A stretch of 64,000 nt of DNA, taken from Terriglobia bacterium. Lineage in GTDB: Bacteria > Acidobacteriota > Terriglobia > Acidiferrales > UBA7541. How positions within the stretch are numbered: the first letter of the stretch is position 1; each line of letters starts with the position of its first letter. The DNA lies in contig JAIMAG010000003.1 of assembly GCA_023512135.1 (NCBI GenBank), positions 62,001 to 126,000 of the forward strand, in the 5' to 3' direction. A program made the position numbers and the translations under genes. The notes under the pieces were generated by a model. It ran no database searches and was not told the DNA's origin. It saw only the letters and a program-made list of their open reading frames with translations. Below are positions 7,461 to 62,896 of the stretch, piece by piece.

Positions 7461-7490
7461 TTGACATGGTGGCGAAGCGCTGCCTAGCAT
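7461..7490 (+). promoter_or_regulatory. Promoter of the FmdB-like gene
   Basis: TTGACA (7461-7466), an 18-base spacer, and TAGCAT (7485-7490), ending 49 bases before the ATG at 7540. It lies in the msrB/fmdB divergent gap. Confidence 0.65.
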
Positions 7491-34520: not shown

Positions 34521-35030
34521 CTAATAAGCCACTTTGTCCGGCTTCTGCTGCCACAGCCGAAAGGCTTCCAGGGCCGGCTCGCGCATGATCTGCTGCATGG
34601 GGATGCGCCGGCGAACGGGCGGCTGTTGCAGCTCACGCAAGATGTCGACATCGTCGAAGCCGGCCTGTGCGGCATCTTCTGCGGTGCCGGCGTAAAACAC
34701 GCGCGCCGGCCGCGCCCAGTAGATCGCTCCCAGGCACATCGGACACGGTTCGCAGGAGGTGTAGAGGTCACAGCCGGTCAACTGAAAATGTCCGAGCACA
34801 CGGCAGGCTTCGCGGATGGCTACGATTTCGGCGTGTGCGGTGGGATCGTTCGCACTGGTGACGCGGTTCGCACCTTCGGCAACGATCTGGCCGTCTTTGA
34901 CCACGACACAGCCAAACGGCCCGCCCAACCCCTTGCGCACATTCTCGACCGCCAGGGCAATGGCGCGCGCCATGAACCGGTTGTGTTCGGCAGGATTCAT
35001 CGCGTTTTCGTCGGGCAGCGCAGCGTCCAT
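34521..35030 (-). CDS. guaD: Guanine deaminase, CDA-fold
   Basis: About 169 residues. Deaminates guanine to xanthine for purine salvage. It closely follows the Bacillus GuaD pattern: GGPFGCVVVKDG, catalytic TAHAE, zinc Cys pair in SCEPCPMCLGAIYWARP, and the domain-swapped C-terminal tail. Starts at ATG 35030 or 35000. A TACAAT box lies only five bases before ATG 35030, and neither start has a good Shine-Dalgarno sequence. tRNA adenosine deaminase is a less likely reading, because the AIYWARP segment and length match GuaD. Confidence 0.9.
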   Translation of the reverse strand: MDAALPDENAMNPAEHNRFMARAIALAVENVRKGLGGPFGCVVVKDGQIVAEGANRVTSANDPTAHAEIVAIREACRVLGHFQLTGCDLYTSCEPCPMCLGAIYWARPARVFYAGTAEDAAQAGFDDVDILRELQQPPVRRRIPMQQIMREPALEAFRLWQQKPDKVAY

Positions 35031-35152
35031 CTGCCATTGTAACGCAGCCGCGCCCGCAGCGCCGCGCGGCGCCCGGGATGCGGGCTGCAGGCAGAGCGGC
35101 CGGCGCAACACTGCCGACTGTTCTGCGGCCCGCGGGCTGTGCAAGGCGGGGC

Positions 35153-35181
35153 TTGACTTTCGCTTTTTATTCGCCTATGAT
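35153..35181 (+). promoter_or_regulatory. Near-consensus promoter with no gene downstream
   Basis: TTGACT (35153-35158), a 17-base spacer, TATGAT (35176-35181). Transcription would start near 35188. No plus-strand coding region follows before the convergent gene that ends at 35489. Confidence 0.75.
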
Positions 35182-35188
35182 GTGCGCC

Positions 35189-35295
35189 GGTAGAGGAACG
35201 GGACCGGGGCCGACGGCCCCATTGTCCACAGGACTCTCCCGGGCAGTCGGCTCCGGAATTCGCCCGGCCCAGCCCGGTCCCCCGCCCTGCTCCTC
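35189..35295 (+). ncRNA. Candidate structured small RNA
   Basis: Begins at the expected start point of the promoter at 35153-35181. Long-range pairing is visible: 35200-35208 pairs perfectly with 35273-35281 (9 bp), extended by GAGGA 35193-35197 with TCCTC 35291-35295. Inside, GGGGCC/GGCCCC (35206-35220) forms a hairpin and CCGGGC/GCCCGG forms a second. The RNA may run farther 3', since no T-run terminator is seen before 35489. A rod-like fold with 5'-3' pairing would suit 6S RNA, but I cannot identify the family. It does not match RNase P RNA, tmRNA or SRP RNA signatures. Confidence 0.4.
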
Positions 35296-35488
35296 AGGTC
35301 ACAAGTGCGCAGCGAAGACTTTCCGTTGGCAAAGCTCCCTGCCCGGCTCCGACGATTCCTGTTTCCGCAAGGGTTGCGCTGGACTGCCCGTTTTGCGCAA
35401 AGGTGCGGGGTTGCGAAAGCGGCCTCGAGCCGAGCAAGATAACGACGCGTCTGACTTCCTGTGTCCCGGTGCGAACAGCAGGTGAACA

Positions 35489-38056
35489 TCAACTGCCCTG
35501 CGGCGCGGCGAGACCGAGACGGGTTGCTGCCAACTGGAGAATGCGCGGGTGGGTACAGACCTCGAAGTATTCCAGCGTGCCCGGTTCGGCAATCTGACCG
35601 GTCGGGCTCAGGCAGCGCACAACGCCTTTGCGCACGACCACAACCTCGAACGTTTCGCCGACAGGCACCTGCCCGGCGTAGAGGGGTACACGCTCTTCTC
35701 CCCAGGGCATCGGCACATTCAGCGAGAACGAAGTGAGCGCGACTTCTTCGCTGAGCTTTTCGAATCCTTCCCGATTCAGTTCGATGCCGTTGACGTTCCA
35801 ACGAATCAGGAACTCTTCGGCTTCCTCGCCTTCGACGCGCACCTTCATGGTCTGAAAGTGGAACAGTTGGAACGGCGAAGGGTTCCGCACCAGGATGCGT
35901 CGCGCGACCTTGGAAGAGCTGGAAAGCCGGTCCGAGCGATTCAGCGCCTGCGAGATCATGATGCGCGAATCGCCTTCCATCCAGATGGTTGGTGCTGAAT
36001 TCTGAAAGGCGATGCCCAGGCCCAGGGTGAGCGGCGGCAACCCGAACGCTTCCGCGCGGCGGTTGTTCGCCTGGACGACCTCCAGAATGTGGCGGGACAG
36101 CAGACAGGCTTTGGCGACCGCGCGCTGCTGGGCGCGGTTCGTTTCGGTTTCATAGATGGCCAGAATGATGGCGTCGCCCTCGATGAACACTTTCGTGGCG
36201 GAATAGCGATCGAGCAGCCGCCGCACCGGTTCGTAGAGGTGCAGGCTGAAGTGGGAAGCCGGATTCAGGCCGCGCGCAAGCAGCTCCTGGGTGATGCGGG
36301 TGGATTCCCGCACGTCCACCTTGACCACCACGTGGGAGGTGGTGCGGTCTTCGGTGGGGCGGTCTTCATCGGGAAGGAGAAATTCATACAGCGTGTGATT
36401 CAGCCGGGAGAGTTCCCGGGTGCGTTCGTCGGCGACAAGGTGCACGCTTTCCATCAGCGCCACGAGCCGGTGGTAGTTGCGCAGGTCGCGTCGGAGTCGC
36501 ATCAGGTCTTCGGCAAACCGAACGGCGGCGGCGCGCAACTGTTCGGGCGGATAGCGCCGCAGGGCCCGTGCCGCTTCTTCGATGCGGGCCAGTGAGAACT
36601 GCCGGGCGGGAAACTGCTGCAGGAGTTCGCTGACCCGCTTCAGCTCCTCGCGATCCACCAGCGCCTTTTTCAATTGCTGGAGGTGCACCGGAGGACAGTA
36701 GTCGTGGTGGATCTCGCGCAACTCGTAGCTGGCCAGAACGTGCATCAGGAGATTGCCTTCTTCGAGTCGGCGGAGCCAGGCATCGCGGAGCCGCGCGCGG
36801 AGTGCGACGTCCGCACCGTTCCGCTCGGCCCAGTCCGGGTCGAACAGCCGGCGGGCATTTTCGGGCTCGCAGAGATATTCGCCGAGCTGGCTCTCGCAGG
36901 CCTCTTCCAGGAAATCGGCCTCCTGCTGGGCGGCGCGGAGCTGTGCTTCCAGCGACTGCAGACGCTGGGCGAGCGTCTGCTGCTGCTGTTCGATCTGAAT
37001 GAGCTGAGCCCGGGCGTGGCTGCTCCCCCGGCTGATCAGACGCGTCACAAACCCATCGCCGCGTCCTTGCTGGTGCAGGGCTTCCTGGCGTTCGGCGTCG
37101 AGTCGCGCGGCTTCCGCCTGCAGCGCGCGCGCTTCGGCGGAGAGCGCGGCGAGGCGGGCGCGTGCCTGCTCGAGGGGATCGCTCCCGGCACCGTTGTGCA
37201 GCAGTTCCCGCAAAAGGTCCTTCAACAGGGCGTCGAAGCGTTCGAAGCGGTCTTCATCCTTCAGGTAGTTGCCGAGCAGGACGTACTGTTCCAGGTACAG
37301 GTAGTCGTCGCGGCCGCCTTCGACAAAGATCAGCGGGCAGCGGAGCATCTCGTACAGCTCTTCGAAATCTTCTCCAAACAGGGCGCGGCGGGACTGGCGC
37401 AGAACGGTTTCGTCCACTTCCACGAGCAACTGGCGCAGGGTCTGGCCGACCTTGCGGTAGATGTTGCGGCGGTTCGCCTGCGTTTCGGCCAGATAGACCT
37501 TTTTTCGGTGTGCCTGTTCGGTGCGCTCGAAGAAAGCGCCGCGGGCACGGAGATATTCCTTGCACTCGAGCATCAGGTGCGAGAACTGACTGCTGATTTC
37601 CTGCGTGAACAGTTTCAGGATGGCCACCCGCGCCAGCAGATCGAGCTCGATGTTCTTTTCATATTTGGCCTGAGTGAGCGAGGCCCGCAGCAGTTCGGTC
37701 AGCAGTTTTTTGAAGGCACCGGTTTCCAGCGGTCGGTTCGATTTCAGCTCGCTGAAAAACCGGGCCACCTTCGCCGTCTGGCGCACCAGGTCAAGAACGT
37801 AGCGTCGGGTGGCCTCGACGAAGCGCGGACTCAGGAACACATCGTAGTGAACGTTGTCGGTGCCGCGGACCAGTTGGGTGAACTGAATGTCGGCTCGATA
37901 GGGGACCAGGGCCAGACCGGCGGGCAGGTCCGGAGCAGCGACACTCCGGCGTTCCAGAATCGCTTTGTCTTCAACAGCCACACTCCCATTGAACCGTTGT
38001 TTCCCGTGCGGCTCAAGCGCCTGGCGCCTAAGGGTCAATAAAATGTTTGCAGCCAA
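35489..38056 (-). CDS. Soluble coiled-coil protein with class III cyclase-like domain
   Basis: About 855 residues, no signal peptide or membrane helix. A helical N-terminal region (about 50-300) leads into a long coiled coil rich in Ala, Arg, Gln and Glu (about 305-405). A further helical region follows, and then a class III nucleotidyl-cyclase-like domain (about 570-720). Metal-binding Asp candidates are D581 (VKVDVREST) and D628 (EGDAIILAI). The Asn/Arg of the transition-state motif may be in ALNRSDRL. The usual purine-selecting Lys before GD is not at its normal place, so activity or specificity may differ. A beta-rich C-terminal domain ends the protein. The start is uncertain (TTG 38056, or GTG near 37978). 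Last gene of a six-gene minus-strand run. Confidence 0.8.
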   Translation of the reverse strand: MAANILLTLRRQALEPHGKQRFNGSVAVEDKAILERRSVAAPDLPAGLALVPYRADIQFTQLVRGTDNVHYDVFLSPRFVEATRRYVLDLVRQTAKVARFFSELKSNRPLETGAFKKLLTELLRASLTQAKYEKNIELDLLARVAILKLFTQEISSQFSHLMLECKEYLRARGAFFERTEQAHRKKVYLAETQANRRNIYRKVGQTLRQLLVEVDETVLRQSRRALFGEDFEELYEMLRCPLIFVEGGRDDYLYLEQYVLLGNYLKDEDRFERFDALLKDLLRELLHNGAGSDPLEQARARLAALSAEARALQAEAARLDAERQEALHQQGRGDGFVTRLISRGSSHARAQLIQIEQQQQTLAQRLQSLEAQLRAAQQEADFLEEACESQLGEYLCEPENARRLFDPDWAERNGADVALRARLRDAWLRRLEEGNLLMHVLASYELREIHHDYCPPVHLQQLKKALVDREELKRVSELLQQFPARQFSLARIEEAARALRRYPPEQLRAAAVRFAEDLMRLRRDLRNYHRLVALMESVHLVADERTRELSRLNHTLYEFLLPDEDRPTEDRTTSHVVVKVDVRESTRITQELLARGLNPASHFSLHLYEPVRRLLDRYSATKVFIEGDAIILAIYETETNRAQQRAVAKACLLSRHILEVVQANNRRAEAFGLPPLTLGLGIAFQNSAPTIWMEGDSRIMISQALNRSDRLSSSSKVARRILVRNPSPFQLFHFQTMKVRVEGEEAEEFLIRWNVNGIELNREGFEKLSEEVALTSFSLNVPMPWGEERVPLYAGQVPVGETFEVVVVRKGVVRCLSPTGQIAEPGTLEYFEVCTHPRILQLAATRLGLAAPQGS

Positions 38057-62756: not shown

Positions 62757-62896
62757 AGCGCGCGCTGGCGCAGGGCCCCGCCCCTTGGGTTCGGCGGCGT
62801 GCAGGGTAGGAACAGACCTCCGATGAAGTGCGCGTACACGGCATTATCGTCGGAAGCGGTGCCCGTGTCAAATCGTGACCAGAGTTCGGTGCGAGG

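Follow-up and report, generated by a model that had tools for sequence, protein, structure and literature searches.

A structured RNA family of Candidatus Acidiferrales with a likely LexA operator, found in front of dinB and alone

The locus

The window, a 64,000-nt stretch of an acidobacterial contig, holds a strong sigma-70-like promoter, TTGACT-N17-TATGAT at 35153-35181, which matches the consensus at 10 of 12 positions. Sites with at least ten matches number five in the 64 kb, this one included, and one of them has 11; in the 5 kb scanned there are two such sites versus 0.3 expected. The other strong sites lie at 62871 (-; TTGACA-17-GATAAT, 11/12) and, with 10/12 matches, at 7461 (+; TTGACA-18-TAGCAT), 34430 (-; TTGTCG-16-TATAAT) and 27939 (-; TTGAAA-16-TAGAAT). 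Upstream of the promoter a divergent gene encodes a cytidine-deaminase-family protein. A first, sequence-only reading of this DNA saw no plus-strand gene behind the promoter, and rightly so: the next gene, at 35489-38056, is encoded on the minus strand and is convergent. The same reading labelled that gene as cyclase-domain, a label that finds no backing in Pfam or NCBIfam (no match at E 0.001). A search for an intrinsic terminator between the promoter-proximal sequence described below and the convergent gene found none, so that antisense run-through into this gene, raised in the sequence-only reading for a longer transcript, may occur.

Transcription is predicted to start at about 35188, and the features of the locus are compiled in Table 1. 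A single plus-strand open reading frame runs through the RNA, and indels interrupt it in the sister species. A translated leader peptide was considered and rejected, given that this frame begins within the -10 box, that no start codon is conserved and that the length of the hairpin tip loop varies by 1-2 bases.

Table 1. Features of the RNA locus in the window, and altered dinB genes behind the RNA in relatives
Feature	Position	Strand	Basis
-35 element TTGACT	35153..35158	+	Consensus scan; TTGAC retained in most RNA-bearing relatives
Presumed LexA operator, direct repeat TTCGC-N6-TTCGC in the promoter spacer	35159..35174	+	Same box at SOS genes
-10 element TATGAT	35176..35181	+	Consensus scan; TATnnT in most relatives
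Conserved single-stranded 5' segment GGUAGAGGAACGGGA (family consensus GGUAGAGGAAACGGGA)	35189..35203	+	Nearly invariant across the family
Conserved hairpin	35204..35256	+	Covariation (34 sequences), RNAalifold, MFE, 91% identity between the two species of the genus
Hairpin outer stem, 11 bp	35204-35214/35246-35256	+	
Hairpin 4-bp stem	35216-35219/35241-35244	+	
Hairpin tip	35224-35227/35231-35234	+	
C-rich tail	35257..35297	+	Partly conserved between the two species
Altered dinB genes behind the RNA	L071:1596-2669; L076:1625-2359; L079:814-1464	+; +; -	

A conserved and covarying hairpin

Behind the promoter, relatives share the segment GGUAGAGGAAACGGGA followed by a hairpin of ~55 nt with a conserved internal loop (CAUU / UCUCCC). 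In an RNAalifold analysis of ten sequences, its helices stack and ten pairs are retained through two-sided changes. A larger alignment of 34 sequences has standard pairs in 95.7% of the pair cells and two-sided changes at 12 of the 18 pairs, values reached by none of 500 shuffles, and pairing falls to 32-48% when partners are slid; this alignment was fitted to a covariance model, which favours structure, and the unfitted ten-sequence alignment agrees with it. Covariation in related Acidobacteriota, which the sequence-only reading had proposed as a check, is present for this hairpin. G-U cells outnumber A-C cells in the pair columns (37 versus 10), as expected if the RNA is read from the plus strand. 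The C-rich tail could be the 3' part or a Rho-dependent end of the RNA, which is speculative.

Folding energy is far less telling. The minimum free energy (MFE) fold of 35188-35300 (113 nt) has a z-score of -1.9, with 8 of 200 shuffles as good, and the overall range is -1.9 to -2.2; because this is only modestly better than shuffled sequence, the fold alone would prove little. The 9-bp pairing of 35200-35208 with 35273-35281, one of the helices named in the sequence-only reading, does exist in the 113-nt MFE fold, but the sister species cannot form it intact. Since it is mutually exclusive with the covarying hairpin at 35204-35256, it is rejected as the native fold in favour of this overlapping and supported structure. 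The inner hairpins noted in that reading belong to the conserved structure.

Several further elements were looked for. In most sequences AGAG in the 5' segment could pair with CUCU in the internal loop to give a pseudoknot; read off the covariance alignment, L066, L067, L080 and L085 have no compensating changes, and the candidate was rejected. A CsrA site in the 5' segment was likewise set aside, as the GGA motifs, inspected by eye, lie outside an A-N-GGA context. The search for Hfq gave only weak partial matches in the genome of the window, at 27-29 bits barely above the threshold; the congeneric genome G001 had no match.

An RNA family detected in one acidobacterial family

The RNA was detected in a single family within Candidatus Acidiferrales, which is Acidobacteriota subdivision 2. 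A covariance model built from ten sequences detects it in 41 of the 89 genomes of the family of the window; with a refined model, searched against 399 genomes of the class, the count is again 41 and every carrier belongs to this family. One further, weak hit (E 0.003) comes from G037, a member of another family of the order. In a scan of named genomes the carriers fall in Acidobacteria gp2, Candidatus Acidiferrales and Candidatus Acidiferrum, and of three hits with odd labels, those in L099 and L113 look like chance matches and the third is L098. Two public bins, labelled Bacillota (L107, JAIMBE010000037.1) and Betaproteobacteria (L098, CAJCHZ010000013.1), carry the acidobacterial locus, in L098 with both RNA and dinB; these labels are probably wrong.

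The window copy scores 61.5-63.6 bits against the covariance models of its relatives (E about 1e-10 to 1e-12 per genome); it is among the sequences from which the models were built, and it had already matched G001 and others at the DNA level before a model existed. It combines a covariance-model match with a LexA box upstream, and has no same-strand dinB downstream. No Rfam 15 family matches the region at its gathering score or at E values up to 5. The proposal of the sequence-only reading that this is a small RNA, and a new one, is borne out to the extent that the locus holds a structured RNA which is conserved and covaries within one acidobacterial family and which has no match in Rfam. Its other suggestion, a 6S-like RNA, fails: 6S RNA (RF00013) resembles the RNA of the window in its sigma-70-like promoter and in a long hairpin interrupted by an internal loop, but its model finds nothing at 34900-35700 even at E 5, and the genuine 6S RNA of this genome (73 bits, E 1.8e-14) lies on contig C44. 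Two other candidate structured RNAs from the same phylum, Acido-1 and Acido-Lenti-1 (RF01686 and RF01687; PMC2864571), differ from the present one in that the Rfam scan of the region finds neither, and the main text of the paper describing them mentions neither LexA nor dinB (PMC2864571). Comparative data thus give good support to a previously undescribed structured RNA family, likely under SOS control and most often serving as the leader of dinB.

The promoter contains a putative LexA operator

Conservation of a promoter spacer to the degree seen at this locus is unusual. A DNA query with the region against 61 genomes retrieves 30 loci, that of the window included, with the promoter block CTTGACTTTCGCTTTTTATTCGCCTATGATG or most of it. 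Behind these blocks lie lexA (six loci, with products 58-75% identical to LexA of the window's genome), dinB without the RNA (four loci), the RNA itself (11 loci) and an imuA-like gene for a RecA-fold protein (nine loci, a class assigned because its members resemble one another and match Rad51 weakly). In the genome of the window this box stands before lexA (contig C10) and recA, genes identified by TIGR00498 and TIGR02012; in relatives it stands before lexA, recA, dinB and imuA-like genes. Scanned with the pattern TTTCGC-N6-TTCGCCTA, the window's genome yields two perfect matches and no more, at the RNA and at lexA, as against ~0.02 expected by chance for 14 specified bases in 2 x 2.83 Mb, assuming equal base composition; upstream of recA the pattern matches with two mismatches. 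Most recA promoters of the family have a variant of the box, usually TTTGC-N6-TTCGCC. Across RNA-bearing relatives the spacing from the box to GGTAG is nearly constant.

The direct repeat TTCGC-N6-TTCGC is almost certainly a LexA operator, since it is shared by the promoters of lexA, recA, imuA-like and dinB genes, its perfect matches exceed the number expected by chance, and its period is 11 bp. Having this operator in common with the lexA and recA promoters places the RNA of the window in the presumed LexA regulon. The sequence-only reading was right that a promoter reads into foldable sequence without a gene, and missed both the likely operator within it and the position of the RNA as a dinB leader in relatives.

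Association with dinB and its loss

Most relatives have an intact dinB gene (DNA polymerase IV) on the same strand, with the RNA placed between it and the LexA promoter; dinB homology starts ~120 to 620 nt downstream. The product carries IMS domains and, among NCBIfam entries, is matched best by models of DNA polymerase IV. In the genus of the window, represented by the window and G001, dinB is absent behind the RNA; the sole Y-family gene in the window's genome lies on another contig, behind a different gene and without the box. Other copies without dinB have other neighbours. In G011 the next gene is convergent and PmbA-like, and in G092 and G003 (the copy in the latter being a weak, partial match) the gene for a conserved 'IRLKDG' protein comes next, a gene found further downstream of dinB in other genomes. 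A protein with the N-terminal stretch 'ADEIRLKDGKKLYGVIVAYEENMFKVKT' and no Pfam match is encoded at L086:1721-2746 (+), with homologues in L076, L088, L094, L104 and L119; its gene follows the RNA-dinB unit and, in genomes that lack dinB at this place, comes immediately after the RNA.

Altered DinB proteins also occur behind the RNA, in three genomes. Only a shortened DinB is found in G083 and G065, and G073 has a DinB with altered catalytic motifs. Among the altered proteins, one reads HVRMDGFF for HVDVDAFF and two are shortened, retaining little beyond the thumb (IMS_HHH_1) domain. These proteins look like stages in the loss or repurposing of dinB. A recA tree in which several supports are moderate puts solo copies of the RNA at three or more separate positions, close to genomes that have both RNA and dinB. 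Genus g12 has kept the box and dinB without a detectable copy of the RNA. As the RNA occurs without dinB in some genomes and dinB without the RNA in g12, the two are separable.

Some dinB leaders that lack the RNA (L015:1500-1600 (+); L018, L019 and L028) can also form long hairpins behind a LexA box. Their sequence is unrelated to that of the RNA; they come from another family of the order (G037) and from genus g12. A hairpin at the leader position of dinB may thus be more general than the RNA family. The best reading of these arrangements is that the RNA was ancestrally the 5' leader of dinB and that it would still form the first part of the dinB mRNA in most relatives.

Conservation of the orphan RNA

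The comparison within the genus covers only two species, in which flanking coding sequence is 87% identical. Between them, the promoter is identical at 31 of 32 bases (97%) and the hairpin at 91%, versus 59% for the upstream spacer and 40% for the downstream spacer; the C-rich tail is intermediate (67% over 35257-35300, 40% beyond). Differences within the hairpin fall in an unpaired junction, the tip loop and a bulge, and all pairs are unchanged. Neither species has dinB at the locus, and a hairpin that stays intact while the spacer around it changes freely points to a function that does not require dinB in cis. Collectively, these patterns indicate that the orphan RNA appears to be kept by natural selection in the genus of the window.

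Of the competing explanations, the one that survives best, and one we regard as improbable, is an orphaned relic: a promoter and leader left over from a lost dinB and now functionless, the likeness between the species being due to recent loss or to selection on the promoter only. The presence of dinB behind the RNA in most relatives, the several apparent stages of its loss and the small sample of two species, 87% identical in coding sequence, all suit a relic; a hairpin more conserved (91%) than its flanking spacers (40-59%), with differences at unpaired positions, does not, nor does the presence of the RNA without dinB in at least three lineages.

Proposed mode of action

We consider it probable that the locus encodes a structured non-coding RNA repressed by LexA and induced by DNA damage, a former dinB leader that would be independent here and act most likely in trans. 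In undamaged cells, LexA bound to the direct repeat between the -35 and -10 elements would block RNA polymerase, and upon DNA damage RecA-triggered self-cleavage of LexA would open the promoter, steps that we infer from the box and from general knowledge of the SOS response. The transcript, starting near 35188, would carry the conserved single-stranded GGUAGAGG..ACGGGA segment, followed by the long hairpin with its internal loop. With dinB absent and the RNA maintained alone in the genus, the RNA should do something independent of dinB in cis. It is tempting to propose that it acts in trans, either by base-pairing of the 5' segment or through a protein bound at the conserved internal loop, a part of the model that is less certain than its regulation.

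An alternative somewhat less credible than a relic confines the RNA to a cis role, the hairpin controlling or stabilizing the dinB mRNA in relatives, and the promoter driving, in the genus of the window, an antisense or longer 3' overlap with the convergent gene at 35489. Its position before dinB in most carriers and the failure to find an intrinsic terminator ahead of the convergent gene are in keeping with such a role; but the sequence between the hairpin and the convergent gene is not conserved, and the genes next to the solo RNAs of G092 and G011 are different ones. The hairpin is unlikely to mask the start site of dinB, which lies far away and at no fixed distance. As for 6S RNA or another RNA known to Rfam, a strong promoter followed by a long hairpin that contains an internal loop would fit, but with 6S encoded elsewhere and no Rfam match at gathering or at E 5, this identity has next to nothing in its favour. 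Equally implausible is a chance fold of GC-rich spacer behind a chance promoter, which the unremarkable fold energy would allow; against it stand the covariation, the presence of the RNA in 41 genomes of the family and the island of conservation seen when the two species are compared. The reading of a damage-inducible RNA that would act in trans is thus preferred.

Relation to known systems and significance

The closest parallels are partial. DinR of Klebsiella pneumoniae (PMC10907235) is a non-coding product of an SOS transcript under LexA control, made along with a protein-coding SOS mRNA, as the RNA described here would be. It is an Hfq-dependent fragment from the 3' end of the dinI mRNA and represses ftsZ (PMC10907235), whereas the present RNA would form the 5' end of the dinB transcript or stand alone, and has a different structure. 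The Caulobacter SOS box, GTTC-N7-GTTC, resembles the TTCGC box: both precede SOS genes and are direct repeats whose period is 11 bp. The half-site of the acidobacterial box differs, being TTCGC (TTTGC at many recA genes), and no SOS box was found near the damage-induced small RNAs of Caulobacter (PMC9578287, PMC6237742). None of the titles and abstracts retrieved from open-access papers bears on LexA sites in Acidobacteria.

LexA-controlled RNAs that work outside toxin-antitoxin pairs seem to be rare, with DinR a recent case. The RNA described here combines strong covariation, a clear candidate operator, occurrence in 41 genomes and natural experiments in which the polymerase was lost and the RNA kept. 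The chances are about even that it represents a new class of structured RNA that was born as the leader of an SOS polymerase, repeatedly outlived that polymerase and became an independent damage-induced regulator in trans. For Acidobacteriota subdivision 2, a little-studied soil lineage, these results provide a direct repeat as candidate SOS box, together with a core regulon that would comprise lexA, recA, imuA-like genes, dinB and the RNA.
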